64,000 nucleotides of DNA from contig NZ_JAIOTY010000002.1 of NCBI RefSeq assembly GCF_019931275.1, positions 1,390,631 to 1,454,630 on the forward strand, given 5' to 3'. The translations under genes and the position numbers were made by a program. Source of the DNA: Nitratidesulfovibrio sp. SRB-5. Its GTDB lineage: Bacteria; Desulfobacterota; Desulfovibrionia; Desulfovibrionales; Desulfovibrionaceae. The notes beneath the pieces are model-generated. The model was not told the origin of the DNA. It did no database searches and saw only the letters and a program-made list of their open reading frames with translations. Shown here one piece after another: positions 1,419 to 35,831 of the stretch; position 1 is the first letter of the stretch; every line of letters begins with the position of its first letter.

Positions 1419-2549
1419 ATGATTCTCGAAATTGCGTGCCGCAATCTTTTTCACGACCGCGTAAGGCTCGTCGTGACACTTACAGGCATCGTCTTTGCCG
1501 TGGTGCTGGTAACGATACAGTGCGGGCTTTTTCTGGGGTTCATCACCACCATCTCTGGCGTGGTGGACAACAGTCAGGCCGACTTGTGGGTGACCTCGCG
1601 CGGGGTCAAGACGTTCGACATCGCCATGCCCATGCCCGAAAGCCGGGTACAGCAGGTTCTGGGGGTAGAGGGGGTGGCGGACGCCGCAGGGATGGTCGTG
1701 GACTTCTCTTTCTGGAAGAAGCCGGATGGCGGGCAGGAGTCCATAGAAATCATCGCCTTTGAGAAACGCAAAGGCCTTGGTGGTCCATGGAACATGATCG
1801 AGGGTGATGCAACGCGCCTGGACGCCGAGGACTCGGTGATAATGGACACCCTCTATCTGGAAAAACTGGGCGTCACTTCACTTGGCGAACAGGTTGAAAT
1901 AGTGGCCCATCGAGCCAGGGTGATGGGCTTCACCATCGGCATTCGCTCCTTCACCACATCGCCCTACGTATTCACCGACTACCGCAACGGGCATCTCTAT
2001 TCGCGGTTCGCCCCGGGGCAGATCACCTACGTGCTGGTCAAGGCGGATCCGGGCGCGGATATGGACGAGTTGCGAAGGCGCATCGCCGGGCAGGTCGCGC
2101 ATGTGGATGTGTTTACCACCCGGGAATTCAGCCAGAAAACCCGCGAGTACTGGATGCTCAGCACCGGGGCGGGTGGGGCCTTGGTGCTGGCCGCACTGCT
2201 GGGCCTGGTGGTCGGCATGGTCATCGTTGCCCAGACGCTGTATGCGACCACAATGGACCACCTGCCCGAATTCGCCACGCTGAAGGCCATGGGCGCGCCT
2301 GACGGGTACATCCTGCGCATCATCATGGGGCAGGCGGTGATCAGTGCGTTGCTGGGCTACGGCCTGGGCATGGGGATCTGTTTCACCATCGCACATCTGC
2401 GCCGCTACGGAGAAACCGCCATCATCCTGTCGCCTGCCCTGGCGCTGGGCATGTTCTTTCTCACGCTTTTCATGTGCGTTGCGGCGTCCGTGATCTCCAT
2501 CCGCAAGGTGCTGGTCATCGATCCCGCCATTGTGTTCAAGGGGCGCTGA
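1419..2549 (+). CDS. ABC exporter permease, DevC/MacB (FtsX-like) type
   Basis: Inner-membrane permease of 376 residues. A first membrane helix lies near residues 17-40, followed by a large periplasmic domain (about 45-235). Three more helices lie near 243-270, 300-325 and 337-360. This is the four-helix MacB/FtsX layout. The C-terminus overlaps the ATPase gene by one base, and a membrane-fusion protein follows, making a DevBCA-like tripartite exporter. Substrate is unknown. The position next to an exosortase-type protease and PEP-CTERM genes suggests envelope or glycoconjugate export, but that is inference. Confidence 0.85.
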   Translation: MILEIACRNLFHDRVRLVVTLTGIVFAVVLVTIQCGLFLGFITTISGVVDNSQADLWVTSRGVKTFDIAMPMPESRVQQVLGVEGVADAAGMVVDFSFWKKPDGGQESIEIIAFEKRKGLGGPWNMIEGDATRLDAEDSVIMDTLYLEKLGVTSLGEQVEIVAHRARVMGFTIGIRSFTTSPYVFTDYRNGHLYSRFAPGQITYVLVKADPGADMDELRRRIAGQVAHVDVFTTREFSQKTREYWMLSTGAGGALVLAALLGLVVGMVIVAQTLYATTMDHLPEFATLKAMGAPDGYILRIIMGQAVISALLGYGLGMGICFTIAHLRRYGETAIILSPALALGMFFLTLFMCVAASVISIRKVLVIDPAIVFKGR

Positions 2550-3235
2550 TGGAATCCCGGCCATTACTTGAAGTGCGTGACGTGAGCATGGTTTTCGGCA
2601 GTGGGGAGAATGCCCAGTATGCCCTGCGCGACGTGGACCTGGCCGTGCATGACGGAGAGGTGCTGATGCTGCGTGGTCCGTCGGGCAGTGGCAAGACGAC
2701 GTTGTTGTCCATAATGGGCGGCATTCTTTCTCCCACCAGCGGCGAAGTGTTCGTTGACGGGCATGCGATGACGAAGCGGTCCACGGCAGAGACATCCGCC
2801 CTGCGACTTCAGTACTTCGGTTTCATCTTTCAGGATTACAACCTGTTCCCGACGCTTTCCTGTTCGCAGAACATCCAGGTGGCCCTGGACCTGCGTGGCA
2901 TTGGCAGGGGGGATGCGCGACGGATCGCCGCCCGGACCCTGCAAGAGGTTGGCCTGGGGAACAAGCAGGACGAGATGCCGGCCAAGCTCAGCGGGGGCCA
3001 GAAGCAGCGTTTGGCGGTTGCGCGAGCCCTGGCGGGGTCGCCCAAGGTTATGCTTGCCGACGAACCGACAGCGGCGCTTGATTCGGCGAATGGCCTCATG
3101 ATCATGGCGTTGCTGCGCGACCTTGCACACGCGCGCGGTCGCGCCGTTGTCGTGGTGACCCACGATGACCGTATCATGCCGTATGCCGATCGGGTCGTGC
3201 ACATCGAAGATGGACGGATAAAGGTCCCGGGGTGA
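2549..3235 (+). CDS. ABC exporter ATP-binding protein, DevA/LolD/MacB type
   Basis: Cytoplasmic ATPase of 228 residues that powers the permease encoded just upstream. Walker A GPSGSGKTT lies at 43-51, the ABC signature LSGGQ at 147-151 and Walker B VMLADE at 167-172. The ATG at 2549 overlaps the permease stop (TGATG), which indicates translational coupling; the longer frame starting further upstream only shadows the permease. Length is normal for the family. The nearest known types are DevA and MacB N-terminal domains, which work with MacA/DevB-type adaptors such as the next gene. Confidence 0.92.
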   Translation: MESRPLLEVRDVSMVFGSGENAQYALRDVDLAVHDGEVLMLRGPSGSGKTTLLSIMGGILSPTSGEVFVDGHAMTKRSTAETSALRLQYFGFIFQDYNLFPTLSCSQNIQVALDLRGIGRGDARRIAARTLQEVGLGNKQDEMPAKLSGGQKQRLAVARALAGSPKVMLADEPTAALDSANGLMIMALLRDLAHARGRAVVVVTHDDRIMPYADRVVHIEDGRIKVPG

Positions 3236-3243
3236 GGTGCGCC

Positions 3244-4305
3244 ATGAAGCCCAGGCTGATTGTCTTTGCCGCGCTTGTCGGCGTGGCGTCGGTGCTCGCG
3301 TTTTCAAGGTCGGTACAGCCGCCGCTGAACGGGCTCATGCCGCGCACGTCCGCGGCGGCGGCCCTTGAGGAGCGGAAGCAGGGGTGGATAGTCGCCTCCG
3401 GAAGGGTCGAGCCGGTGACCAAGGAACTGGTGCTTGGCTTCGAGACCAGCGGGGTCATCGAAACGCTGCACGTGGCCGAGGGTGACAAGGTCGAACAGGG
3501 GCAGTTGCTCGCCCGCCTTCGCAACGAAGTGGAACTGGCCCAGCTTGACGAGGCGCGCGCCAATGCGCTTGCCGCACGAATGGAACTGGAGAAGCTGACC
3601 AACGGGGCCAGGCCGGAGGAAAAGGGAGAGGCGCAGGCCAGGGAGCGCCGGGCGCTCAAGGTGTTCGAGCAGGCCCGGCAGGAAGCGGCGCGGCGTCAGC
3701 GGCTGCGTTTTCAGGACGCCATCTCCAGGGAGGACATGGAACGTGCCCAGCGCGACATGGACGTGGCGAAGCAGGAGTACGACGCCGCCTGGCAGCAGCT
3801 GAAGCTGGTCGAGGACATGTACCGGCGGGAAGACGTGGCCAAGGCAGGACATCAGCTGGCCGCCGCCGAGGCAGCCGTCCGGGTGGCCGAGTCCACACTG
3901 CGCCGCATGGACCTGCGGTCTCCGGTGGCCGGAACGGTGTTGAGGGTGTTCGGAGAGGCGGGCGAAGTCTTTTCGCTCTTCGCTCCCTCGCCCGTGATCA
4001 GCGTCGGTGACATTGCGGCGCTCAACGTCAGGACAGAAGTGGATGAACGGGACATCGGCCGCGTCCGGGTGGGGCAGGCCGCGTACGTGAGGGCCGATGC
4101 CTATGGAAAGGAACGGTTCGGCGGCAAGATAAGCCGCGTGGTGCTCAGCCTGACGCCCAAGACGCTGCGCACCGGCAACCCGTCGGAACCGGTGGACCGG
4201 AGTGTGCTTGAGGTGTTGATCACGCTCGACGCGCCCGGCCCGCTCGTCAGTGGATTGCGGGTGGATGCCTACATCGATGCCTCGGCACTCCCCTTGCCGC
4301 AATGA
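3244..4305 (+). CDS. Membrane-fusion (HlyD/DevB-type) periplasmic adaptor
   Basis: Adaptor subunit of the tripartite exporter, 353 residues. It has an N-terminal membrane anchor (about 5-20), a beta/lipoyl-like segment near 45-90 and a long charged coiled coil rich in Glu, Arg and Ala (about 90-215). Second lipoyl and beta-barrel parts follow (about 220-345). The ATG at 3244 is preferred over the GTG at 3232 because an AGGTG sequence sits just in front of it. It starts nine bases after the ATPase stop and overlaps the next gene by four bases (ATGA). No outer-membrane TolC partner is encoded in the window. Confidence 0.88.
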   Translation: MKPRLIVFAALVGVASVLAFSRSVQPPLNGLMPRTSAAAALEERKQGWIVASGRVEPVTKELVLGFETSGVIETLHVAEGDKVEQGQLLARLRNEVELAQLDEARANALAARMELEKLTNGARPEEKGEAQARERRALKVFEQARQEAARRQRLRFQDAISREDMERAQRDMDVAKQEYDAAWQQLKLVEDMYRREDVAKAGHQLAAAEAAVRVAESTLRRMDLRSPVAGTVLRVFGEAGEVFSLFAPSPVISVGDIAALNVRTEVDERDIGRVRVGQAAYVRADAYGKERFGGKISRVVLSLTPKTLRTGNPSEPVDRSVLEVLITLDAPGPLVSGLRVDAYIDASALPLPQ

Positions 4306-5036
4306 CGTTTCCAGGGCGCACCAGCATGCCGTTGCTCACGGAGCATCCCGCGCAGACCTCTGCGGCGCCGCCGGGCGAGATAGCCTGGCGAGTGGCGCCG
4401 TTCGCCGTTTACATGGTGTTCACGGCAATTGCAGAGGTTTCCACATTGCTCGGCCTGCCGTTTTCAGGCGCATGGGCGGGTGCGCTCTATCCGGTAAGGG
4501 CCGTTTGCGTGGCGGTGGCGTTGGTGGTGTGCCTGCCGAGGTGCCCGGAACTCATGCCGAAGGATATGACCGGGCGTGGCATTCTGTTCGCATCCATGGT
4601 GGGCGTGGCGGTATTTGCGGCGTGGCTGGCCCTTGATGTGCCGTGGGGCCGGGTGGGAACGCCCGTTGCCTTTCCGCATCGGGCCTGGGGCGATGATGCA
4701 CGCCCCCTGCTGCTCGCCATCCGGTTCCTTGGGGCTGCCGTACTGGTTCCCCTGGCGGAGGAACTGTTCTGGCGCTCCTTCCTGATGCGCCACATTCAGG
4801 GCGGGGATTTTCGCACGGTGCCGCTGTCCCGCTTCCATCCCTTGTCATTCATTGCCGTGACCGTGCTTTTCGGCCTGGAACATCACCTGTTGGTGGCGGG
4901 CATGCTGGCCGGGGCAGCATACAACATGGTGGCCTTGCGGACGGGAAGCCTTGGGTGCTGCGTTCTGGCGCATGCCGTGACCAACGCGCTGCTCGGCCTG
5001 TGGGTGTTGTATGCGGGCGCATGGGAGTTGTGGTAG
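4302..5036 (+). CDS. CPBP/CAAX-type intramembrane protease, exosortase-associated
   Basis: Multi-pass membrane protein of 244 residues. Its family motifs are EELFWR (E153, E154, R158), a second motif with H194 (GLEHH) and a third with H224 and N228 (AHAVTN); these form the glutamate/histidine active site of CPBP (Abi, Rce1-like) proteases. A subgroup of this family is known to travel with PEP-CTERM/exosortase systems. Start overlaps the adaptor stop by four bases, so it belongs to the exporter operon. It may act on lipoprotein or sorted-protein substrates, but the substrate is unknown. An internal ATG at 4326 is a possible alternative start. Confidence 0.82.
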   Translation: MTFPGRTSMPLLTEHPAQTSAAPPGEIAWRVAPFAVYMVFTAIAEVSTLLGLPFSGAWAGALYPVRAVCVAVALVVCLPRCPELMPKDMTGRGILFASMVGVAVFAAWLALDVPWGRVGTPVAFPHRAWGDDARPLLLAIRFLGAAVLVPLAEELFWRSFLMRHIQGGDFRTVPLSRFHPLSFIAVTVLFGLEHHLLVAGMLAGAAYNMVALRTGSLGCCVLAHAVTNALLGLWVLYAGAWELW

Positions 5037-5212: not shown

Positions 5213-6067
5213 CTAGGCAGTGCGCCTTGCGCGCCGCAAAAGCAGGGCCAGGCCCCCGAGCCCGATGCCCATCAGCAGCGCCGAAGCGGGTTCGGGCGTC
5301 GGAAGGGCACGGATGGTCAGCAGCGTGTCGTGGACGGTGGTAGCGCCTTCGGATGTCACCCAGCCCACGGCATCCGCGGCAAGACCAAGGGCGGCGCGGT
5401 ATGCAGCGGGAATGGGGGAGAAGGACTTGGTGAAGTCCATCACGTAGTCGATGCCGTAAAAGTGGAAGACTTCCTGGGTCACTTCGGGGTTGAGCAGCAC
5501 GAACACGTCGTTGGGGGTGCTGCTGTTGTTGGGGGTTTCATAGAAGGCGAAGTCCAGGGACGTGGAGAATACCGGCAGCGCACTGCCACCCACGGGCGTA
5601 AGCTTCAGGATCGCGCGGACGATGCCTCTCGCCAGGTCCAGGTTGCTTGCCGGGATTGCGTTGTTGTTGTGCGTGAGAACAAGTCCGACCTTGGCGGCAC
5701 CGTTGGTGTCGATTATGCCACTGGTCGCGGCAATGACGATTGAGCTCAGTGGGTTGACGTTCTCGTGTATATACCTTCTGCCATTATAGTAATAGTCTCC
5801 CCAGCTTAGTTTTGAGTAGCCGGTGACGCTTTTTGCAGGATCGACAAGGACGCCGCCATCGTAGTTGTAGGTAAGTGTCTTTTCGATGCTGCCGGTTATG
5901 CCGTTTGTGCTGTCGCCGTATACGTTGGTATCGTTCAGCGTGTTGGTCCACTCAACGAATACTCCGTCGACGGTGTAATTCCACTGGGTGACGATGCTGG
6001 CCGATGCGGATGTCTGGAGCAACAGGGGGATAAGCAGGGCCAAGAAGAATGTGACTAGGCGTTTCAT
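5213..6067 (-). CDS. PEP-CTERM cargo protein, THxN-family type (paralogue 1)
   Basis: Secreted exosortase substrate of 284 residues. A signal peptide occupies about residues 1-23. The body contains the THNN motif of the THxN PEP-CTERM family. The C-terminal sorting tail has PTPEPAS, a hydrophobic helix (about 262-276) and a basic end (RRARR). The tail is expected to be recognised and cut by the exosortase at 34977-35831, so the mature protein would be released to the envelope or matrix. It is clearly homologous over its full length to the next upstream gene, for example in VFVLLNPEVT and YSKLSWGDY. Both are probably transcribed from one sigma-54 promoter. Molecular function is unknown. Confidence 0.9.
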   Translation of the reverse strand: MKRLVTFFLALLIPLLLQTSASASIVTQWNYTVDGVFVEWTNTLNDTNVYGDSTNGITGSIEKTLTYNYDGGVLVDPAKSVTGYSKLSWGDYYYNGRRYIHENVNPLSSIVIAATSGIIDTNGAAKVGLVLTHNNNAIPASNLDLARGIVRAILKLTPVGGSALPVFSTSLDFAFYETPNNSSTPNDVFVLLNPEVTQEVFHFYGIDYVMDFTKSFSPIPAAYRAALGLAADAVGWVTSEGATTVHDTLLTIRALPTPEPASALLMGIGLGGLALLLRRARRTA

Positions 6068-6194: not shown

Positions 6195-7058
6195 TCAGGT
6201 GCGGGCGTGCCGACGGAGGCCGAAGAGGCCCAGGAGGCCGAGCCCCATCAGGATGATGGAGGTGGGCTCCGGAGTGGGCAGCGCCGTGATGCTGAGGAAC
6301 GTGTCGTGCGTGGTGAGCGCGTTCTCGGAGGTTATCCAGCCCACGGTGCCGGGATCCAGGCCGAGCAGCGCAAGGTACGCATCGGGGATCAGCCCGAACG
6401 ATTCGCCGAAGCTGAACACGTAGTCGACGCCGTAGTAGTGGAACGTCTCCTCGGTCACTTCCGGGTTCAGCAGGACGAACACGTCATTTTCGGTGGGCGT
6501 GCCGTTCGGGGTTTCAAAGAACAGGAAGTCCAGCGTGGTGGAAAAGACGGGCAGCGGGGGGAAGCCCGAAGGGGTAAGCTCGAGAATGGCGCGAACCATG
6601 CCGGATTCAAGCTGGATCGAACCGCCCAGGATCACGTTGTTGTCATGGTACAACTGCATGCCAAGCGAGGCCGGACCGTCGGTAATGAGGGTGCCACTGT
6701 TCGGGGTGATGCCGATGGAACTCAGCGCGGCGCCCGGCACCTGCGAGTATACGGGACCCGGACCGCTCCAGACATAATCGCCCCAGGAAAGCTTCGAGTA
6801 TCCTTCGGCATACGTGCCCGGAGGGACGGGGACGCCCGCGTCCAGATCGTATGCCAGATACTTGTAGTCCGCCGCGCTGGTGGTGATGCCCTGCACCGGC
6901 GAACCGTAATTGCCGCTGGTGCCCACGGTGGTTGACCAATTGATGAAAGCGCCATCGACCGTGTAATCCCACGACGCGATGGGGGACGCCCAGGCACTGG
7001 CCATCATCATTGCCGAGATGATGATAGTGCTGCAAATGGTTGATACGATGCGGTTCAT
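6195..7058 (-). CDS. PEP-CTERM cargo protein (paralogue 2)
   Basis: Secreted exosortase substrate of 287 residues, homologous to the gene at 5213-6067 along its whole length. It has a signal peptide (about 1-24, ending in AWAS). The C-terminal tail consists of PTPEPTS, a hydrophobic helix with GLGLLGLFGL, and RRHART. The THxN motif of the sister protein is altered here (YHDNN). It is the first gene behind a good sigma-54 promoter match (7117-7134), so it and probably its sister are expected to respond to PrsR or another sigma-54 activator. Role unknown; matrix-associated protein is the likely class. Confidence 0.9.
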   Translation of the reverse strand: MNRIVSTICSTIIISAMMMASAWASPIASWDYTVDGAFINWSTTVGTSGNYGSPVQGITTSAADYKYLAYDLDAGVPVPPGTYAEGYSKLSWGDYVWSGPGPVYSQVPGAALSSIGITPNSGTLITDGPASLGMQLYHDNNVILGGSIQLESGMVRAILELTPSGFPPLPVFSTTLDFLFFETPNGTPTENDVFVLLNPEVTEETFHYYGVDYVFSFGESFGLIPDAYLALLGLDPGTVGWITSENALTTHDTFLSITALPTPEPTSIILMGLGLLGLFGLRRHART

Positions 7059-7116: not shown

Positions 7117-7134
7117 AAGCAAGCGTTGTACCAA
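7117..7134 (-). promoter_or_regulatory. Sigma-54 promoter for the PEP-CTERM genes
   Basis: On the minus strand this reads TTGGTACAACGCTTGCTT, with GG and GC separated by ten bases; it matches the TGGCAC-N5-TTGC consensus at most positions. It lies 59-76 bases upstream of the start codon of the 6195-7058 gene. Confidence 0.8.
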
Positions 7135-7395: not shown

Positions 7396-10302
7396 TCAGG
7401 CCCTGCTGTCGGGAAGCAGGATTTCCGACAGGGCCAGCCGATAGGTGCCGTGCCGGATGGCGGGCCCGATGCCGGTCCGGAACAGCATGACCGGCAGTTT
7501 GTCCGAAGGATGCGGCAATGCCTCGGCAAGCAGACGCCACGCCTTTTCCAGCAGGGATGCATGGCAAGGCGAAAGTGTTTCCGCGTCCCCCAGGCGAATG
7601 CGCAGGTGCAGCAGCGGCAGGGCGGCAAGAGGCTGCAATGCGTAGCCCATGTGCTCCAGGGCGCACCATGCGCGTTGCCAGGCCATGCCCGCGCGGACAA
7701 TGTCCGCCTCGGCCTCTCCGTTGGCCAGCAGCAGCGCCACGCCACCACTGCGCAGAACGCTGAGCGCACCGTGCAGCGGCATGAGCCTGCCGAGCCCGAC
7801 CTGGTTTGCCGCATGCATGGCGGACCATGGCCGCAGGCTGCGCAGGTACATCTCGCCCAGTGGGCCCGCCTCCAGATTGCCTAGGGGCAGCCCGTCGCCG
7901 TAGGGCCCCTGCTGTGGTTCGAAGCGGATGAAGCGCATCAGGTGTTCGTGCAGATCGGACCGTTCCACGCGTACCCTGTCGGCAAGGTAGACGGCCTTGG
8001 CCAGAATCTTGCGCTGCGCCGGGTCGGCAGCCCAGGCCAGTGTCGCATCCTGCTGTTCGTCCACGATGTGGTCAACCCGGTCGCGCACGGCGGGCGGTAT
8101 GGGGCAGGCCGAATACATGCGCCGGTTGGTATGCCGCCGCCAGAGGGCCGCCGCCATGATTTCGTGGCTTTGCACTCCGACCGGGGTGCAGTGAAGCGAC
8201 GCCACGCGGTTGTGGTCTTGTTCGTCGGGGAACAGTGAAAGATCGGCGTCCAGCCCGACACTGCCAGCGGCAAAAACGGCATTCTGCACGGCCGCCCCGC
8301 AGGCAAGCAGTGTGGCGACCTGCCGGTAATTGAAGAAGGAATCGTCCGCATGCCTTGCCGCGTGGATGTGTATGCCGGTTTCGTGCAGGGCGATGCGCCA
8401 TGGCTGCACGTTGTCGCCTGAGGGCGCCCGGGTGGCAGCCTGCGCGATGTATTCCAGCGTTGCGGGCGGGATGTCCTGGCGCAGCCCCATCATTTCCGGA
8501 TCAGGGGGGCGCGGGGCGCCGGTGCGCGGCGTGCCGAGAAAGAACCGTCGGGCGATGGCAAGCTTCAGCCGTTGCAAGGGGGACCGCAGGCCCTGGCGCA
8601 GCTTTCCGGTGGTGAATCGCCCCGTGAGCGGGTCGAATTGGCGAAAGTACGGCGTCGGCCTGATCCCTTTCTTGCCCAACAGCAGGCGGACCGCCTCCGT
8701 GCCGGCCATGCCCGCGCATATGTGGCAGGCGATGTCCAGCGAGGGGCCCCGGCGATCATGCAGGCTGACGAATCGCCTGTCCATGTAGCCAAGGTGGGCC
8801 GGGCGGGGCGCCAGCCCCATGCCGAAGCGCAGATATCCCTCCATTTTCTCGGTGTGTTCCGTGATGTCGAAGTAGTCGTCAAAGTTCATGCCGCCCGGCG
8901 TGAATACCAGCAGGGCGCACGAGAACCCGAGCGGCGCGGCGGTAATGACGGGAATGCCCAGCGCAAGGGCGCGGTTGAACAATTGACGGCGTATGTCGAG
9001 CGCAAAAAAGTCTATGCCATCCACCACCAGGTTGACATCCTTGAGGAAATCGTCGAGCGAGGTTGCGGAAATGCCCCCGGGAAAGGCGCGGATGTCCATG
9101 AACGGATTCACGCTGAGCGCGCGCTCGGTCATGACGTCGAGCTTGTTTCTCCCGAAGCTGGCGATGCTCGCCCCGTATTGTCTGTTGATGTTGACGGGCG
9201 AGTAAGCGTCGAAGTCGGCCAGGTTGAAATTGCCGATTCCGGTGCGGGCAAGCGTCATCAGGTGCACGCCGCCTACGCCACCCAGCCCCGCAATGGCCAC
9301 GCGTGAGCCGAGCAGCTTGCGCTGCCCGGCGTAGTCCACCAACCCCAGGTTTCTGCAAAAGGCCACATCCGAGTACGCGTCCCGGGTTTCGAGCTTGAGC
9401 ATGTCCAGCGGGACGCCGCTGGGTGTTTCGGGGTGGACGGGGTGTGTCGAGAAGTGGTTGAACAGGGCCCGGTGGTAGATGGTTTCGATGAAGTCGCGCT
9501 GCTCTTCGGCCAACTGGTCCAGAAGTTCCGGGCGTTGGCGCAGCAGATGATAGGCGGTGTACGGATCAAGGGGCTGGTCCCGCTTGACGGGGTTGTCCTT
9601 GGTATCCGTCTCTCCACTGTTCATGCGGACGAAGAACGTGAAGAGGTTGGTATCGAAGTCGTCGGAGTTGCCGTACTTTTCCTTGAGTTCATCCATGGTC
9701 TCGGAAAGGTTTATGCGTAATGCCACGGCAGGGGCATTCACGGAATCGTAATGGCGCACTTCTCCAAACGGCTTGAACAGGAATATCTGCGTATAGAAAT
9801 TCACATGCTTGGGGTTTACGGTAATGACGATGTCGTCGAAACTGGACATGATGGAGTACTGGAACATGGCCTTCGCAAGATAGACCATGAGGTTTGTCCA
9901 CCTGCGTGTGTACTGCGTCGCAAGTGATCCGACTTCGGCAATGATCCTTCCCTTGTCCCGCAGCGTGTCGAGTTCGGGCTTGTACAAGGCGTCCATGGGA
10001 AGCCCGAACAAGTCAGAGTCTGGTATGTGCGATAGCGTGCAGAGCACGTCGTTGTAGCTTTTGAAGACGAAAACGGAAGTTTGCGGCAGCATGCTCCAGA
10101 TGGTGTAGTGCATGAGAGACGGGTGCGGCCTGGTGTAGCCAGAGCGCAGGTACTCTTCATACACAAGGCGGAACGCCCTCGTATATTCGTCGGGCGTTTC
10201 CGCTATTTTTATGGCTGGCCTGTCCAGGGAGCCCAGTTTGCACTGGAGCAGGGAAGACCGCTTGATGCGAATGGTGCGTCTTTTGTCGGCGATTGCGAGC
10301 AT
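7396..10302 (-). CDS. Three-domain fusion: FeeM-like N-acyltransferase, ThiF/E1-like, nitroreductase-like
   Basis: Unusual 968-residue protein. Residues 1-230 resemble the GNAT-fold FeeM/autoinducer-synthase-like acyltransferases found with PEP-CTERM systems (AEVGSLATQ near 122-130; NPKHVNFY near 163-170). Residues about 310-600 form an E1/ThiF-like adenylation domain with GLGGVGG (339-345), ADFDAYSPVNINRQ (362-375) and K387. Residues about 620-965 resemble a nitroreductase-like domain (RAPSGDNVQPWR). The E1 plus nitroreductase pairing recalls the mycobacterial Rv1355c family; the N-terminal acyltransferase is an added part. A sigma-54 promoter lies in front. I infer production of a small acylated, adenylation-dependent metabolite or signal, but the reaction is unknown. 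Confidence 0.82.
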   Translation of the reverse strand: MLAIADKRRTIRIKRSSLLQCKLGSLDRPAIKIAETPDEYTRAFRLVYEEYLRSGYTRPHPSLMHYTIWSMLPQTSVFVFKSYNDVLCTLSHIPDSDLFGLPMDALYKPELDTLRDKGRIIAEVGSLATQYTRRWTNLMVYLAKAMFQYSIMSSFDDIVITVNPKHVNFYTQIFLFKPFGEVRHYDSVNAPAVALRINLSETMDELKEKYGNSDDFDTNLFTFFVRMNSGETDTKDNPVKRDQPLDPYTAYHLLRQRPELLDQLAEEQRDFIETIYHRALFNHFSTHPVHPETPSGVPLDMLKLETRDAYSDVAFCRNLGLVDYAGQRKLLGSRVAIAGLGGVGGVHLMTLARTGIGNFNLADFDAYSPVNINRQYGASIASFGRNKLDVMTERALSVNPFMDIRAFPGGISATSLDDFLKDVNLVVDGIDFFALDIRRQLFNRALALGIPVITAAPLGFSCALLVFTPGGMNFDDYFDITEHTEKMEGYLRFGMGLAPRPAHLGYMDRRFVSLHDRRGPSLDIACHICAGMAGTEAVRLLLGKKGIRPTPYFRQFDPLTGRFTTGKLRQGLRSPLQRLKLAIARRFFLGTPRTGAPRPPDPEMMGLRQDIPPATLEYIAQAATRAPSGDNVQPWRIALHETGIHIHAARHADDSFFNYRQVATLLACGAAVQNAVFAAGSVGLDADLSLFPDEQDHNRVASLHCTPVGVQSHEIMAAALWRRHTNRRMYSACPIPPAVRDRVDHIVDEQQDATLAWAADPAQRKILAKAVYLADRVRVERSDLHEHLMRFIRFEPQQGPYGDGLPLGNLEAGPLGEMYLRSLRPWSAMHAANQVGLGRLMPLHGALSVLRSGGVALLLANGEAEADIVRAGMAWQRAWCALEHMGYALQPLAALPLLHLRIRLGDAETLSPCHASLLEKAWRLLAEALPHPSDKLPVMLFRTGIGPAIRHGTYRLALSEILLPDSRA

Positions 10303-10350: not shown

Positions 10351-10367
10351 AAGCCAGTTTCATGCCA
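10351..10367 (-). promoter_or_regulatory. Sigma-54 promoter for the E1 fusion gene
   Basis: Minus-strand TGGCATGAAACTGGCTT with GG-N10-GC spacing, 49-65 bases before the start codon at 10302. The TGGCATG part is shared with the sites at 10458 and 11589. Confidence 0.72.
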
Positions 10368-10391: not shown

Positions 10392-10407
10392 CGACAGCAG
10401 GGTGTCG
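10392..10407. promoter_or_regulatory. Candidate activator site CGACA-N6-TGTCG between divergent sigma-54 promoters
   Basis: A perfect five-base inverted repeat with a six-base spacer (GCAGGG) lies between the minus-strand promoter at 10351-10367 and the plus-strand one at 10458-10474. The same arrangement, with spacer GCGTGT, occurs at 7291-7305 upstream of the PEP-CTERM promoter. Confidence 0.45.
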
Positions 10408-10457: not shown

Positions 10458-10474
10458 TGGCATGAATGTGGCAT
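10458..10474 (+). promoter_or_regulatory. Sigma-54 promoter for the PilZ gene
   Basis: TGGCATGAATGTGGCAT has GG-N10-GC spacing and lies about 120 bases before the chosen PilZ start. The -12 box is TGGCA rather than TTGCA, so the match is moderate. Confidence 0.6.
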
Positions 10475-10592
10475 GGAGTATGGTGGCAACGCGGTGCGCC
10501 GAGGTTCTGTTCGCGGAGTACAATGATGTTCAGCATGATTGGTATGCGAACCACTTAAAGGCGGAAATTCCGTAAGTGAGGGCGCTGTTGTG

Positions 10593-11156
10593 ATGAGTGT
10601 TGAAGTAGATATGCAAGCAGGGGCGCGGCTCGCAAATGTTTCTGAATGTCTGAAGTGTCCACCTGGGCAGATTGCTTCCGGAATACTGAATACGTTCTTT
10701 GAAAGTGGATATGTTGGCTATATGAATAGTGATATTGAGAAAAGGAGGGTTCATCGCAAGTTTGCGAAAATTGATGCCATAGCGCATGTTTCTGAAGGTG
10801 CAAATCAGTACAGATGTACCCCGACTGTCATAAGGAATATCTCTTTATGTGGTTTCAGGGCGGAGATACATCAAGCATGCGGTGAATACGAAAAGGTCAT
10901 GAGAGAGGCAGGCGCTTTCGAATTGATGTTTACATTTCCTGCGGATGAAGATGTTGTGACGTTCAATTGCCAGATACGTTACATGGCTGTTGGTGACAGG
11001 GTGGTGGTGGGTGGGGCGTTTGTAACGCCTGATATCATTTCACTTCGTGCGTTGGTGAAATACCTGCTGTCACAGCAGGCCGAAGATGGACACGACGCTG
11101 TGGTGTGTCGAGAGAATTTACAGGTGTCGGATTTTCCGACAAGCGGAACGGCATGA
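10593..11156 (+). CDS. PilZ-domain protein (putative c-di-GMP receptor)
   Basis: Cytoplasmic protein of 187 residues. It shows the two PilZ binding motifs: an Arg-rich RRVHRK near residue 50 and NISLCG (N/D-x-S-x-x-G type) about 25 residues later. It therefore probably binds cyclic di-GMP. The frame extends upstream to a TTG at 10539, but ATG 10593 (or GTG 10590) follows a GAGG sequence and is preferred. GC content is lower than in the neighbouring polysaccharide genes. It is divergent from the E1 fusion and has its own sigma-54 promoter match, which links c-di-GMP signalling with this locus. The target protein is not evident. Confidence 0.75.
   Translation: MSVEVDMQAGARLANVSECLKCPPGQIASGILNTFFESGYVGYMNSDIEKRRVHRKFAKIDAIAHVSEGANQYRCTPTVIRNISLCGFRAEIHQACGEYEKVMREAGAFELMFTFPADEDVVTFNCQIRYMAVGDRVVVGGAFVTPDIISLRALVKYLLSQQAEDGHDAVVCRENLQVSDFPTSGTA
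11125..11141. promoter_or_regulatory. Perfect palindrome TGTCGGATTTTCCGACA
   Basis: A seven-base perfect inverted repeat with a TTT centre, inside the last codons of the PilZ gene. It is the cleanest copy of the TGTCGG/CCGACA element in this window. A further half-site (TGTCGGA, 11368-11374) lies between it and the prsT promoter. Confidence 0.45.
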
Positions 11157-11647
11157 ACATTCTGCGCCGAGCCGGTTCTGTATTGTAACAATTGTGCGGG
11201 CGGGGGGGCGCAGGGGCAGGTCATCCAGGTTCGCCGGGTGCATGAAATACAGGCGCGTACGGCATTGCCGTATGCCCGGCAGGGCGTGGCGTGTGAGTGG
11301 CCGGTTGCGTTGCGTCGCGTGTAGGGGATGCCCGCACCCGGCAGGTAGGTTCCGGTGCGTTTGTTGTTGTCGGAACGGTCGTGGGTGTCTTTGCCTTCGC
11401 CGTGTTGGTTTCACGCGGAATCAACGGGTGTGGGCAGAGGCTTTTTTTTGTCCAGCTTATCACGACCAGCGTCCAGTTTATCATGCGAGTCTTGGTTATC
11501 AATACGTAATACGGAAAAGTCTAGAATGTATTTTTTATAATACGGTAAAATATAGAACCATTTTTTGTGCATATTCGGCGCGACCAACTGGCATGGTATT
11601 GGCTCTTATAGGGGACACATCCGTTTTTCGAGAAACCGGAGGCCCCT
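11157..11647 (+). promoter_or_regulatory. Long intergenic region upstream of prsT
   Basis: No convincing gene lies in these 491 bases. The left part is G-rich; the part at 11500-11580 is AT-rich. Near its end is the sigma-54 site at 11589-11605, then a short leader and the ribosome-binding site GGAGG at 11638-11642. The AT-rich stretch could help DNA bending between an upstream activator site and the promoter. Confidence 0.55.
11589..11605 (+). promoter_or_regulatory. Sigma-54 promoter for prsT and possibly the polysaccharide genes
   Basis: TGGCATGGTATTGGCTC has GG at 11590-11591 and GC at 11602-11603, exactly ten bases apart, 43 bases before the prsT start. It is nearly the same sequence as the sites at 10351 and 10458. 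Confidence 0.7.
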
Positions 11648-14299
11648 GTGTGGAACAATCTTCGCTGGATCGTTTGCTGGGTCGTGGTCATGCTGTCCGT
11701 TTCGGGTTGCGGAACCGACAAGGCCGGGGACTTCCTGTCCGAAGGGCGCAAGCTGATGGGGCAAGGCAACCCGGCTGGCGCCGTGGTGCTCTTCAAGAAT
11801 GCGCTGGAAAAGGATCCCGGCGACTACACGCTGCATCTTGAACTGGGCCGCGCCTACTATGCGCTTGGCAAGATTGATCTGGCCGAGAACGAGCTTCAGA
11901 AGTGCTACCGGCAGCAGCCAAATGACCCGGCGCTGAATCTCGCCCTGGGCGAAGTGTACGTTGCGCGCAACCTTCCGGACCAGGCGCTTGTTCATGTCCA
12001 GAAGTTCGAGGAGCATGCCGGTGCCACCGCTGCCTCGCGCGAGTTGGCTGGGCTTGCCTATGGCCAGGCCAGGCGCCCGGAAGAAGCGCGCAAGGCCCTG
12101 GAGCAGGCATTCAGCCTTGATCCCAAGTGCATATCCGCTCGGTTGGCGTTGGGGCGCCTTTTCCTGTACCGGGGCGACCTGCGCGCGGCTTCTTCCGTGC
12201 TGCAAGAGGCCCTTTCCATCGGTCCCGATGACTCGGCGGCCCTTGCGCTTCAGGGCGACATCCTGTTGCGGCAGGGAGAGACGGACAAGGCGCTTTCCCT
12301 GTTCCGCAGGGTCACCCAGTTGACCCCCCTTGATGAAAACGCCCGGTACATGGTGGGCGTGCTCCAGTTGCAGCTTGGCAACGAGGCCGAGGCCGCGCAG
12401 ACGGCCGCCGCCATGCGCGCGGACTTCAAGGACAGCGCCCTGGTGTTCCTGTTGGAGGGCGCCCTGGCCGCCACCAGGAAGGACTTCTCCGAAGCCGCCA
12501 CCCTCCTGCAACGCAGCGTGGCGCTGCGCCCCAGCGTGGAGGGCTACTACAAGCTGGGGATGGCGCTCTATGCCAAGGGCGATCTGGAAATGGCCCTGAG
12601 CCAGTTCAACACGGTGCTGGCATCCACCCCGGACCATGACGCGGCCCGGCGGATGGTATGCACCATCCTGCTTGCCCAGCGCCGCCTGGACGAGGCGATG
12701 CAGGAGGCCCGGAAGCTTCTCGACAGGAATCCGGGAGACGCCAACGCCCATTTCCTGATGGCCGGGGTGCTTCTGGCCGGAAAGGACAAGCGAGGCGCCG
12801 AGAAAGAACTGGAGGCCGGTCTGGCCCAGGAGCCGGCCCACATCGGCGCCCTGTTGCAGCTCAGCACGCTGAAGCAGTCGGAAGGAAGGACGGACGAGGC
12901 CCTGGCGGACCTGCGCACCGCCGTGGTCGCGGCCCCGGACAACATCATCGCCCGCAACGCGCTGTATTCCTTCCACTTGGGCCGAGGTGAAATGGACAAG
13001 GCGGAGAAGGTCGTCCTCGAAGGGGTGAACAACACCCCGCAGGACGCCGTGCTGTATACGATGCTTGTCCCTCTCTATGCCAATGCGGGCAAGGAGGCCA
13101 AGGCGCTTGACGCGGTGGCCAAAGCCCACCGGGCCGATCCGGCATTTGCCGATGCATATCTTGCCGGTCTGCGCGTCCATGCCGGGGCGGGCAGGGTGGA
13201 GCAGGCGCTGGCCGAGAGCGAGGCGTATCTTGCCGTTTCGCCCGACTCTCCGGGCTTCCTTGTGGCGTCCGGGGCGCTGCTTGATCTGCTGGGCAGGACG
13301 GCCGAGGCGGATGCGCGGTTCGACAGGGCGCTCGCGAGCAAGGACCGCCAGGTTGTGCTTGTGGTCGCCAACCGTGCCGCTGCGACAGGGCGCACCGACA
13401 AGGCGAGGCAGGTTCTGGAGGCGGCGTTGCAGGCTGACAGCCAGGAAGACCTGCGCGAGGCGCTCGCCGTGCTGCTGGTGCGGGAGAACAAGCCGGATGC
13501 CGCGCTTGCCCTTTACAGCAGCATCGAGGCGCAACGACCGCGCGAAGCCCTGATCGGCCGCTATCGCCTGCTTACCCACATGCGGCGCAACCAGGAGGCC
13601 GCCGAGACGGCACGCACGCTTGGCCTGCGGGAAGGCGGTTCGTCGTTGCCGACCATGCTCGAAGCCTATGCGCTTGAACGCATGCAGCAGCGCGAACAGG
13701 GAATCCAGCTTCTTGATGCGGCGTATCGCCAGAAGGGAAGCGCGGATCTGCTGCTGGCGATGGGGGGGATGCTGGAGCGAGGCGGGGATCTTGCCCGGGC
13801 CGAAGCCTGCTACAAGGACGCCCTGAAGGTCCAGCCCGACGATGTGCCGACCCTGCTGGCCATGGGCACGCTGCAGATGCGCCGCAAGGCATACTCCAAG
13901 TCCGTTCCCGTCTACGAAAAGGCTTTGCGCCTGGCTCCGGCCAATGTCGTGGCCATGAACAACCTGGCCATGGCCTATTTGCAACAGAACGGCCGGGCGC
14001 AGATGGCCTTGCAGCTGGCCCTTCAGGCGTACACGCATTCTCCCGAGAATCCCGAGGTGCTTGATACCCTTGGCACCTGCATGATGGCCAACGGCAGGGC
14101 CGACGAGGCCTCCCGGGCATATGGCCGCGCGGTGGCGGCGGCGCCTGAAAACCCCACGCTGCGCTACCACCATGCGGAGGCGCACTTCAAGGCCGGGCGC
14201 AAGGGCAAGGCCGCGGAAGAACTGCGCGTGGCCCTTCAGACCCCCGACTTTCCCGAGGCGGCGCAAGCCAGGGAATTGCTGCGCAAAGCCGGCAACTGA
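11648..14299 (+). CDS. prsT: PEP-CTERM system TPR-repeat lipoprotein PrsT
   Basis: Exported TPR protein of 883 residues, the usual size for PrsT. A hydrophobic signal ends in the lipobox-like SVSGC (Cys near residue 21), so it is probably lipid-anchored. The rest is a continuous series of 34-residue TPR units, many recognisable from the A-x-x-x-G/A-x-x-L and PDD/PEN patterns. PrsT is known as a marker of exosortase/EPS loci and is thought to act as a periplasmic or outer-membrane scaffold. The start is GTG 11648, five bases after GGAGG. It is the first gene of the long plus-strand run and sits behind a sigma-54 promoter match. Confidence 0.92.
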   Translation: MWNNLRWIVCWVVVMLSVSGCGTDKAGDFLSEGRKLMGQGNPAGAVVLFKNALEKDPGDYTLHLELGRAYYALGKIDLAENELQKCYRQQPNDPALNLALGEVYVARNLPDQALVHVQKFEEHAGATAASRELAGLAYGQARRPEEARKALEQAFSLDPKCISARLALGRLFLYRGDLRAASSVLQEALSIGPDDSAALALQGDILLRQGETDKALSLFRRVTQLTPLDENARYMVGVLQLQLGNEAEAAQTAAAMRADFKDSALVFLLEGALAATRKDFSEAATLLQRSVALRPSVEGYYKLGMALYAKGDLEMALSQFNTVLASTPDHDAARRMVCTILLAQRRLDEAMQEARKLLDRNPGDANAHFLMAGVLLAGKDKRGAEKELEAGLAQEPAHIGALLQLSTLKQSEGRTDEALADLRTAVVAAPDNIIARNALYSFHLGRGEMDKAEKVVLEGVNNTPQDAVLYTMLVPLYANAGKEAKALDAVAKAHRADPAFADAYLAGLRVHAGAGRVEQALAESEAYLAVSPDSPGFLVASGALLDLLGRTAEADARFDRALASKDRQVVLVVANRAAATGRTDKARQVLEAALQADSQEDLREALAVLLVRENKPDAALALYSSIEAQRPREALIGRYRLLTHMRRNQEAAETARTLGLREGGSSLPTMLEAYALERMQQREQGIQLLDAAYRQKGSADLLLAMGGMLERGGDLARAEACYKDALKVQPDDVPTLLAMGTLQMRRKAYSKSVPVYEKALRLAPANVVAMNNLAMAYLQQNGRAQMALQLALQAYTHSPENPEVLDTLGTCMMANGRADEASRAYGRAVAAAPENPTLRYHHAEAHFKAGRKGKAAEELRVALQTPDFPEAAQARELLRKAGN

Positions 14300-21408: not shown

Positions 21409-21462
21409 TGTTGTAAGACGCCAGCAAAGATGAAGCGGCACGATGCCGTAGGGGAGGGAGCC

Positions 21463-22314
21463 ATGCGGAACGCCCTTACCGTCGATGTGGAAGACTATTT
21501 CCACGTGAGCGCATTTGAAAAGGCCGTCGATCCAGGACAGTGGGATTCGCTGCCCCAACGTGCGTTGCGCAATACCAACCACGTTCTCGACCTGCTGGAC
21601 AAGTGGGGGTTGCGCGCGACCTTCTTCACCCTGGGCTGGGTGGCCAAGCGTCACCCCGAGCTGGTGCGGCGCATGGCGTCGGCGGGGCACGAGGTGGCGT
21701 GCCACGGATACTCGCACCGCCGCATCACGACCATGAACCCCAAGATGTTCCGCGATGACATCCATCGTTCGCGCCTGCTGTTGCAGGACCTTTCCGGGCA
21801 GCCCGTGAACGGTTACCGGGCGCCCAGCTACACCATCACGCAGGACACCATCTGGGCTCTCGATGTGCTTATCGAAGAGGGCTTCACCTACGATTCAAGC
21901 ATATTTCCCATCAATCACGATATCTACGGCATGCCCGGAAGCCAGCGTTTTCCGCATGCCATCACCCGGGACAGCGGCGTTATCAAGGAGTTTCCCCCCA
22001 CGACCTATCAGGTGGAAATGCTCGGTCGCCGCGTGAACCTGCCGGTGGCCGGCGGCGGCTACCTGCGGCTGTTGCCGGCGTCCTGGGTAAGTGGAGCCTT
22101 CAGGCGGCTGAATGCCTTGGGCAAGCCTTGCGTCCTGTATTTCCACCCGTGGGAGATCGATCCTGCGCAGCCGCGCATCCGGGCGGCCCTGCGGTCCCGG
22201 TTCCGCCATTACCTGAATCTTGCCACCACAGAATCGAAGCTGCGCCATCTCTTTTCCACGCTGCGGTTTTCCACCATGAGTTCCGTGCTGTTCGGGACGG
22301 TGGCCAATGTCTGA
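21463..22314 (+). CDS. Polysaccharide deacetylase, exosortase-system type (DUF3473)
   Basis: NodB-fold deacetylase of 283 residues. Metal-site motifs are TVDVEDYFHV at the N-terminus and the CHGYSHRR segment near 80-87. YRAPSYT and the C-terminal FHPWEIDP motif are typical of the XrtA-linked group. It likely removes N-acetyl groups from the polysaccharide on the cytoplasmic or periplasmic side; no signal peptide is seen. ATG 21463 follows GGGAGGGAG; ATG 21430 upstream is in frame but lacks such a site. It overlaps the FemAB gene by eight bases. Confidence 0.92.
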   Translation: MRNALTVDVEDYFHVSAFEKAVDPGQWDSLPQRALRNTNHVLDLLDKWGLRATFFTLGWVAKRHPELVRRMASAGHEVACHGYSHRRITTMNPKMFRDDIHRSRLLLQDLSGQPVNGYRAPSYTITQDTIWALDVLIEEGFTYDSSIFPINHDIYGMPGSQRFPHAITRDSGVIKEFPPTTYQVEMLGRRVNLPVAGGGYLRLLPASWVSGAFRRLNALGKPCVLYFHPWEIDPAQPRIRAALRSRFRHYLNLATTESKLRHLFSTLRFSTMSSVLFGTVANV

Positions 22315-34912: not shown

Positions 34913-34980
34913 CAACGCACATCTGGAGAACGGCGCGTCGGCAGCATGCGCAGGCCGCGCCGGTACGGAGCCGCCCATGA
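34909..34980 (+). CDS. Possible 23-residue coupling peptide before the exosortase
   Basis: A mini-ORF starts with ATGA overlapping the glycosyltransferase stop and ends with a TGA that overlaps the exosortase ATG (ATGA again). The 23-residue basic product (starting MTTHIWRTARRQ) shows no domain. It would carry ribosomes from the transferase to the exosortase, which lacks a good ribosome-binding site of its own. It may equally be chance in a GC-rich region. Confidence 0.35.
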   Translation: MTTHIWRTARRQHAQAAPVRSRP

Positions 34981-35831
34981 CGCTTGCCGCCGTTCTGCGC
35001 CAGCACCCGCTGCATTTCGTGCCGGTTCTCGCCATGTTCGCCGTGGTCTACCACGCCATCGTCATGCGCATGGTGGGCGACTGGAGCTTTGACCCCAACT
35101 ATTCGCACGGGTTCCTGGTGCCGTGCCTGTCGGCGTGGTTTGCATGGCGCAGGTGGCCGCAACTGCGCGAAGCCGTGGTCGTCCCGTCCCTTTGGGGGCT
35201 CCCGCTGCTGGGGCTTGGCCTTGTGCTGCTGCTGTTCGGCTCCGTGACGCTGGAACTGTTCACGTCACGGGCCTCGCTGGTGGTGCTGCTGGCCGGAACC
35301 ATACTCTATCTTTACGGGACCGGGGTGTTCCGCCTTTTGCGCTTTCCGCTGGCGTACCTGCTGTTCATGGTGCCCCTGCCATACACCGTGTACGACGCCC
35401 TGGCCCTGCCATTGAAGGGCCTGGTGTCCGCCGTCGCAACGGGTGGCATCCGCCTCATGGGGCTTCCGGTGCTGCGGGAAGGCAACGTGATCATTTTCCC
35501 CAACATAACGCTCGAGGTGGTGGACGCGTGCAGCGGCCTGCGTTCGCTCATGAGCCTGGCTGCGCTGGGAACGGCCTTCGCCTTCCTGTTCCTTCCGGCC
35601 GGGTGGCGGCGCTGGGTGCTGGTGCTGGCCACCGTGCCCATTGCCGTTGCCGCCAACACCCTGCGGGTTTTCGTCACGGGCGTGCTGTCCTGGTATATGG
35701 GGGCTGGCGCGGCAAGCGGCTTCTTTCATGAATTCGAAGGGATAGTCGTTTTCTTGGTGGCCATGGCCCTTACCGGCGGCCTGGGCATTGCCTTGGGGCG
35801 TGGGCATCAGGACCAGCGCGGGAAGGAGTGA
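34977..35831 (+). CDS. Exosortase (EpsH family)
   Basis: Membrane transpeptidase of 284 residues with about eight helices. The three known catalytic residues are visible: Cys185 in VVDACSGLRSL, Arg230 in AANTLRVF and His251 in FFHEFEG. SHGFLVP near 43-49 is also typical. It should cut PEP-CTERM tails such as those of the two cargo genes at 5213-7058 and join them to an unknown acceptor. It is a short form; the EpsI domain is separate in the next gene rather than fused. The subclass (A or other) cannot be settled by eye, though the neighbouring families are XrtA-type. Confidence 0.95.
   Translation: MTLAAVLRQHPLHFVPVLAMFAVVYHAIVMRMVGDWSFDPNYSHGFLVPCLSAWFAWRRWPQLREAVVVPSLWGLPLLGLGLVLLLFGSVTLELFTSRASLVVLLAGTILYLYGTGVFRLLRFPLAYLLFMVPLPYTVYDALALPLKGLVSAVATGGIRLMGLPVLREGNVIIFPNITLEVVDACSGLRSLMSLAALGTAFAFLFLPAGWRRWVLVLATVPIAVAANTLRVFVTGVLSWYMGAGAASGFFHEFEGIVVFLVAMALTGGLGIALGRGHQDQRGKE

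Follow-up and report, generated by a model that had tools for sequence, protein, structure and literature searches.

A predicted one-chain acyl-oxazolone synthase in an exosortase/PEP-CTERM locus of Nitratidesulfovibrio sp. SRB-5

Introduction

N-acyl tyrazolone and N-acyl tryptazolone are the products of three activities (PMC10404671, PMC12856293). In brief, TyzA and TrzA are FeeM-like transferases, TyzB and the ThiF part of TrzS are cyclases, and TyzC and the flavin-dependent oxidase (FDO) part of TrzS are oxidases of the nitroreductase superfamily. Here we describe a gene of Nitratidesulfovibrio sp. SRB-5 that encodes domains of all three kinds in one protein of 968 residues and lies in an exosortase/PEP-CTERM locus. 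The stretch analysed, hereafter the window, is 64,000 nucleotides of contig NZ_JAIOTY010000002.1. Here and below, published papers are cited from excerpts of their text.

The TyzACB system (Rv2336, Rv2337c and Rv2338c) has the same three activities and yields a C12 acyl-tyrazolone, but it consists of three separate proteins; the likeness is by description. Rv1355c is now TrzS, a cyclase-desaturase yielding N-acyl tryptazolone, and TrzAS corresponds to Rv1356c/Rv1355c (PMC12856293). TrzAS and the actinobacterial Rv1355c-family proteins share the ThiF-FDO order of the 968-residue protein and keep the positions of the tested residues, whereas their acyltransferase is separate, the TrzAS products are acyl-tryptophan compounds, and identity between the Rv1355c family and the 968-residue protein is about 25%. 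Nearest in domain make-up, again by description, is OxzAB of Pseudoalteromonas rubra, cited in PMC10404671 and PMC12856293 as an earlier oxazolone synthetase. It pairs an N-acyl transferase with a ThiF-FDO fusion, and thus is two proteins rather than one chain; an exosortase context is not mentioned in the excerpts of these two papers. In two plasmid neighbourhoods of Rv1355c-family genes we did not see an exosortase gene.

N-acyl amino acid synthases (NAS) with PEP-CTERM systems are already in print (Craig 2011, cited in PMC7293339). The stieleriacine cluster of the planctomycete Stieleria maiorica has NAS, ThiF and nitroreductase genes near PEP-CTERM and exopolysaccharide genes (PMC7293339); it differs from the 968-residue protein in its separate genes, in its product, N-acyl dehydrotyrosine, and in its host. 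What acyl-oxazolones do physiologically is described as a major unresolved question in the discussion of PMC12856293.

Domain architecture and family

The gene is one open frame on the minus strand with an ATG start, as read from the open reading frames, and frame 1 of the plus strand over the same interval holds several stops. Coordinates and domain matches are given in Table 1. The FeeM, ThiF and Nitroreductase matches to Pfam are all over cut-off, and the FeeM domain is the sole match to PF21926 in the genome at E 0.001. The NCBIfam model NF011425 (PRK14852) spans residues 1-964 and scores 1796.6 bits (cut-off 1337), which places the whole protein in that family. The ThiF part is also over the cut-off of NF006077 (PRK08223; 349.1 vs 266). 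NF011424 (PRK14851) aligns over residues 302-961 and falls short (727.7 vs 1170), and the oxidase region matches the Acg family NF047509 at E 6.1e-42, under that model's cut-off. NF011425 has the same three-part architecture as the 968-residue protein; all three of NF011425, NF011424 and NF006077 are titled 'hypothetical protein'. An earlier note on this DNA, made from the sequence alone, had read three domains in one chain of 968 residues and had named a FeeM match within residues 1-230 as one test; Pfam and NF011425 bear out the first, and the PF21926 match at residues 43-198 answers the second.

Residues 1-233 gave no match at E 0.01 to TIGR03694, the PEP-CTERM/exosortase system-associated acyltransferase (cut-off 111.95 bits), and the domain is thus not assigned to that family. 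TIGR03694 is likewise a FeeM-like acyltransferase of exosortase systems, and is taken in by the same iterated FeeM profile that we use below. Two of the loci compared below, L058 and L104, carry TIGR03694 members over cut-off, unlike the 968-residue protein.

The three-part chain is found as one frame also in Nitratidesulfovibrio liaohensis (L053, probably identical with genome G006 of our first survey) and in genome G005, as well as in N. vulgaris, where plasmids of the strains DP4 (989 aa) and L2 carry it as a single annotated gene. The DP4 orthologue is identical at 750 of 966 aligned residues. The closest named relative found is that of N. liaohensis, with 94% identity over the ThiF-nitroreductase part. 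An assembly artefact as the source of the fusion is ruled out by the single frame in several assemblies. The three-part architecture is real, and was already catalogued without a function.

Predicted activity

We aligned the ThiF-nitroreductase half with 11 relatives, the DP4 protein and two plasmid-borne Rv1355c-family proteins. Invariant residues are N373-R374, K387 and D431 in the ThiF domain and S628-G629-N631-Q633-P634-W635, R776 and R778 in the oxidase region, while the Q890 column is broken only by a Rhodococcus row (H). D431, either R776 or R778, and Q890 appear to align with the tested TrzS residues D217, R540 and Q651, on a putative map for which the TrzS numbering was reached via a Mycolicibacterium Rv1355c-family protein with an offset of 13-15, and not via the TrzS sequence itself. 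By sequence, the protein combines a FeeM-type synthase, a ThiF domain with the aspartate and an oxidase with the arginine and the glutamine of this map, features by which we would recognise an acyl-oxazolone synthase. We consider it probable that the protein is a natural one-chain acyl-oxazolone synthase, with a predicted product of that class.

We suggest the following order of steps. The FeeM domain would N-acylate an amino acid, probably an aromatic one, with a fatty acyl group. The N-acyl amino acid would then be closed into a reactive ring, which the nitroreductase-type FMN domain would desaturate. The product would be like the acyl-tyrazolones, -phenazolones or -tryptazolones, or would be a ring-opened N-acyl dehydro amino acid. 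Synthesis would go along with that of the exosortase/PEP-CTERM matrix, with sigma-54 and probably also PrsR in control, and with a putative role in biofilm. The kinship between the E1-nitroreductase pair and Rv1355c that had been pointed out from the sequence was correct. The suggestion of an 'undescribed' product is outdated: the predicted class is already known, because Rv1355c is TrzS and its relatives make tyrazolones (PMC12856293, PMC10404671).

The ThiF domain is similar in sequence to ThiF, MoeB and bacterial E1-E2 defence proteins, as would be expected if it served in sulfur transfer or ubiquitin-like conjugation and its fusion were incidental. We hold this to be highly improbable, since the listed ThiF and MoeB equivalog models scored far under cut-off, while NF006077 passed, and since a FeeM partner is frequent (see below); a function as sulfur-carrier or ubiquitin-like E1 was rejected on these ThiF and MoeB scores. 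Two further candidates were tried and rejected: an anti-phage E1-E2 system, with weak matches confined to the E1 core, and a phage family, with two ThiF-core matches of unknown function.

Co-occurrence with exosortases

The first survey covered 348 genomes of the window's class, Desulfovibrionia, which are mostly anaerobic sulfate reducers, with matches to NF011425 taken at E 1e-45 or better. Such a match is present in 45 genomes and an exosortase in 86. Exosortases are found in 44 of the 45 matching genomes (43 of 44 without the window's own genome) against 42 of the 303 others, and the exception, G017, has a FeeM match only. Among carriers of the ThiF part the figure is 38/38 against 48/310; one carrier, G091, is a broken fragment. 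The ThiF part and the exosortase share a contig in 30 of the 37 carriers with usable coordinates, at a median distance of 28.5 kb (range 12.9 to 53.9 kb, n=30), and are on different contigs in 7.

The three-part form occurs as one frame in 3 of the 348 genomes, and in each of them an exosortase lies 25-29 kb off on that contig. Of 8 genomes of the window's genus, 3 carry the fusion, and these 3 are also the ones with an exosortase. The earlier note would have counted a three-part form mostly away from exosortase loci as a refutation. The class shows otherwise: an exosortase is present in 3/3 genomes with the one-frame form, and also in 35/35 of the other ThiF-part carriers.

The second survey took 295 genomes of the order of an Alteromonas locus (L104, genome G375) and matches to NF011424 at 1e-60. 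Matches are found in 37 genomes, 4 of them nearly full length and 33 over the ThiF part, and exosortases in 74. An exosortase is present in 36 of the 37 matching genomes and 38 of the 258 others; G375 was picked for its own match, and the count without it is 35 of 36. Match and exosortase are on one contig in 25 of 36 genomes, within 60 kb of each other in 24. Distances exclude G091 (broken match) and, in this survey, G500 (no exosortase). Fisher tests gave p values of 1.7e-30, 4.2e-27 and 2.3e-24, which are too small as the tests treat related genomes as independent; we take the counts as the evidence.

The third survey consisted of 50 genomes hand-chosen from 77 named loci of the ThiF clade, which came from pattern matches to A1 (our label) and are not a random draw. 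An exosortase was found in 39 of the 50. The 11 without an exosortase match (L061, L064, L072, L073, L074, L092, L114, L116, L120, L123 and L126) include many metagenome-assembled genomes (MAGs) of unstated completeness. The surveys overlap, as L053, L062, L066 and L124 share exosortase places with G006, G284, G309 and G091 of the first survey, and L104 is the centre of the second. The association with exosortases is strong within each of the two groups surveyed first, and looser when the comparison extends across phyla. That exosortases accompany the module so often in two distant groups suggests a matrix or biofilm role for it.

Partner genes and repeated fusion

All 77 named loci contain ThiF by construction. 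A FeeM-family gene was found in 57 of them with the iterated profile, which also captures TIGR03694-type members, and a nitroreductase part in 40; among loci of at least 10 kb the FeeM-family gene is present in 49 of 58. In the first survey, 34 of the 38 genomes with the ThiF part also match FeeM, either in the same frame or no more than about 7 kb away on the contig. In one of the remainder (G055) the FeeM match is on another contig, and three (G047, G087, G091) have none at that cut-off.

A further FeeM-ThiF-nitroreductase chain, of 905 aa, is encoded at L070:9287-12001 in a Desulfobacula MAG and falls on a separate branch. An exosortase is present in this genome (G356). Two-part FeeM-ThiF chains are found in a Desulfobacteraceae MAG (L064:9338-10921) and a Planctomycetota MAG (L120:8852-10876); neither genome (G353 and G385) gave an exosortase match, which speaks against the tie to exosortases. 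The E1 tree was made by a quick method, and four rows have very long branches. On it the label 'three-part' needs at least two changes, so that most simply the three-part chain would have arisen twice, and the two Rv1355c-family proteins branch far from the 968-residue protein.

FeeM-type synthases with a C-terminal cyclic-nucleotide-binding domain were also seen (L074:8653-9888 and L100:12230-13378). This fusion suggests that N-acyl amino acid synthesis may be under allosteric control. The L074 genome gave no exosortase match.

The exosortase/PEP-CTERM locus

We scanned 30 hand-chosen frames of the window against protein families, and 11 were over the cut-offs of XrtA/PEP-CTERM-associated families, in agreement with the setting recognised from the sequence. 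These are PrsT, the TIGR03013 glycosyltransferase, an export protein, a chain-length protein, a tyrosine kinase, an ATPase, the TIGR03016 outer membrane protein, a deacetylase, FemAB, a CAAX-like protease and PrsR. An exosortase and EpsI are also encoded in the locus, as are two THxN PEP-CTERM cargo proteins whose genes adjoin the fusion; the fusion gene thus has exosortase, PrsT, PrsR and cargo for company. Both N. vulgaris plasmids, of DP4 and of L2, repeat the window's order of prsT, a small gene, the fusion and two THxN genes.

The exosortase scored 201.4 bits against the XrtA model TIGR03109 (cut-off 208), though the surrounding gene set is XrtA-type. A DevC/HlyD-type ABC exporter and a CAAX-like protease lie near the fusion, and both are also found near split genes in two Desulfovibrio-type loci (L062 and L066).

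Table 1. Features of the window around the gene of the three-domain protein
Feature	Position	Strand	Remarks
ABC exporter set	1419..4305	+	DevC-like permease, ATPase, HlyD-type adaptor; candidate exporter
DevC-like permease	1419-2549	+	Under DevC cut-off
ABC ATPase	2474-3235	+	Named after DP4 annotation at same place
HlyD-type adaptor	3232-4305	+	Part of exporter set
CAAX-protease-related protein of PEP-CTERM loci	4302..5036	+	TIGR03008
Second THxN-family PEP-CTERM cargo protein	5213..6067	-	NF038125
THxN-family PEP-CTERM cargo protein	6195..7058	-	NF038125, TIGR02595
Sigma-54-like site before cargo genes	7118..7133	-	One mismatch to general consensus
Three-domain protein gene	7396..10302	-	968 aa; orthologue of N. 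vulgaris DVUL_RS15680 and, by primer match, of DVUA0034
Nitroreductase-superfamily flavin-dependent oxidase region	7399..8511	-	About residues 598-968; PF00881 609-639, E 1.7e-8; Acg 2ymv, E 1.6e-7
ThiF/E1 domain	8599..9357	-	Residues 316-568; PF00899, E 6.4e-49; ThiF 1zfn, MoeB 1jw9 by sequence
FeeM-type N-acyl amino acid synthase domain	9709..10176	-	Residues 43-198; PF21926, E 4.6e-44; PDB FeeM 2g0b, E 3.8e-13 over 28-201
Sigma-54 promoter TGGCATGAAACTGGCT	10352..10367	-	Begins 65 bases upstream of fusion start codon; kept in DP4, L2
Inverted repeat CGACA-N6-TGTCG	10392..10407		Only exact copy in window; kept in DP4; possible activator site
Divergent sigma-54-like site TGGCATGAATGTGGCA	10458..10473	+	Upstream of divergent small gene; kept in DP4
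Divergent small gene	10539..11156	+	205 aa from TTG, start unsure; DP4 small gene at same place; no Pfam match
Sigma-54 promoter TGGCATGGTATTGGCT	11589..11604	+	Upstream of prsT
prsT	11648..14299	+	TIGR02917
XrtA-system polysaccharide deacetylase	21430..22314	+	TIGR03006
Exosortase	34977..35831	+	TIGR02602
PrsR, PEP-CTERM-box sigma-54 response regulator	36545..37906	+	TIGR02915

E1-like enzymes are able to activate carboxylates for amide bonds, and the polysaccharide deacetylase of the locus would free amines. Activated by the ThiF domain in this way, the N-acyl amino acid might be passed on to a different amine, such as a peptide, sugar or polyamine, giving an amide or a lipid anchor and no ring. 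We find this improbable, as the nearest tested relatives cyclise, according to the excerpts cited, and no gene for an amine acceptor was identified.

Promoter and regulation

A sigma-54 sub-motif, TGGCAYGNNNNTGGCW, has three copies in the window (10352-10367, 10458-10473 and 11589-11604), a number reached by 0 of 100 shuffles. The 4.1 Mb genome has four copies, and none of the reversed control pattern; the pattern was derived after seeing the sites themselves. With the general sigma-54 consensus and at most two mismatches there are 31 sites in the window against 44 expected, which is below chance, and therefore the general-consensus scan alone proves nothing. When one mismatch is tolerated, the repeat CGACA-N6-TGTCG occurs about as often as by chance (5 copies in the window vs 2.66 expected). 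Over the 330 bases upstream of the fusion, identity between the window and DP4 is 60% (208/349 alignment columns), and both sigma-54 sites and the CGACA-N6-TGTCG block are near-unchanged in this alignment. The earlier note had matched the sigma-54 promoter of the fusion to those of prsT and the cargo genes. This holds for prsT through the sub-motif and is weaker for the cargo genes, since their site does not fit TGGCAYGNNNNTGGCW and fits the general consensus with one mismatch. The fusion would likely be controlled by PrsR, possibly through the inverted repeat.

Targets of PrsR (DVUA0057) in Desulfovibrio vulgaris are DVU0132-0133, DVU1152, DVUA0030, DVUA0032-0031, DVUA0089 and DVUA0036-0041 (PMC4641369).

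DVUA0034 and biofilm formation

Primers for DVUA0034 have been published (PMC12654214). Both have an exact match in the DP4 fusion gene, shortly after the FeeM-coding part (about codons 205-288), and DVUA0034 is therefore the orthologue of the gene described here. In D. vulgaris, dvua0034 is among the genes repressed in biofilm cells dispersed by a rhamnolipid-containing supernatant, and biofilm formation was significantly altered, in a direction that the excerpt does not state, when the gene was expressed from a biofilm promoter (PMC6170446). D. vulgaris without the plasmid forms three-fold less biofilm, for which other plasmid genes may account (PMC3333781). No chemistry is assigned to DVUA0034 in the excerpts of PMC12654214, PMC6170446 and PMC3333781. 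A proline-to-arginine difference in DVUA0034 is tabulated between two D. vulgaris cultures in PMC5646257, which characterises another mutation, in DVU1017.

Oxygen and the end product

Several points weigh against an acyl-oxazolone synthase controlled with the matrix genes. A FeeM-family gene was not found in 20 of the 77 named loci, 11 of the 20 being shorter than 10 kb. Identity to the Rv1355c-family proteins is, as said, only about 25%. DVUA0034 is not among the DVUA0057 targets in the published table (PMC4641369). NAS, ThiF and nitroreductase genes occur in the producers of stieleriacine, thalassotalic acid and kyonggic acid, from which, according to the literature excerpts, no oxazolone was observed. 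Lastly, desaturation by TyzC and TrzS requires O2 (PMC10404671, PMC12856293), and the host belongs to an anaerobic group.

These producers may mean that synthesis ends in an open-chain N-acyl 2,3-dehydro amino acid of the thalassotalic, kyonggic or stieleriacine type, with the oxazolone as a passing intermediate only. The hydrolysis of oxazolones by acid and their opening by alcohols, as described in the literature excerpts, would agree with this, as would the S. maiorica cluster, which includes a PEP-CTERM gene and adjoins exopolysaccharide genes (PMC7293339). Extraction with acid or methanol destroys oxazolones, on the other hand, and their non-detection may be an artefact. We regard an open-chain end product as possible and mention it tentatively.

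The oxygen requirement could be resolved in two ways: the flavin domain of the anaerobes may hand electrons to an acceptor other than O2, or it may stop at the saturated oxazolone until O2 arrives, giving an oxygen-gated matrix signal. The ThiF part is, after all, present in 38 of the 348 genomes of a class of mostly anaerobic sulfate reducers. A cyclised, non-oxidised TrzS intermediate builds up at limited O2, according to the literature excerpts, and D. vulgaris, an obligate anaerobe, is highly aerotolerant and has two membrane-bound oxygen reductases (PMC4383621). The biofilm effect of DVUA0034 was seen in anaerobic culture (PMC6170446), which argues against this proposal, and we think it somewhat unlikely.

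Conclusions

The kind of enzyme predicted here, an acyl-oxazolone synthase, is known. What is new is above all the tie of the module to exosortase systems, and further the single chain, the repeated fusion and a sigma-54 promoter in common with matrix genes. A full-text literature search for oxazolone with PEP-CTERM gave, in the text accessible, a sole co-mention, which concerns methanobactin and a reference title, and our literature searches, with most subscription papers outside their reach, did not find, among the papers listed, oxazolone synthesis joined with exosortases.

We further speculate, with little expectation of being right, that exosortase matrix systems in general include acyl-oxazolone synthesis as an arm that has been overlooked. 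The ring would serve as an activated lipid donor, acylating free amines on sorted proteins or on the deacetylated polysaccharide of the matrix. It would thereby tie the matrix to the outer membrane, and in anaerobes oxygen would switch its maturation. If this were true, the electrophilic ring would be a lipid donor and not a free signal.

The finding makes concrete the question of an O2-dependent oxidase in anaerobes. It points to DVUA0034 of D. vulgaris as a testable setting, with a biofilm effect on record without chemistry, and it gives a likely function to a family, NF011425, that is titled hypothetical.

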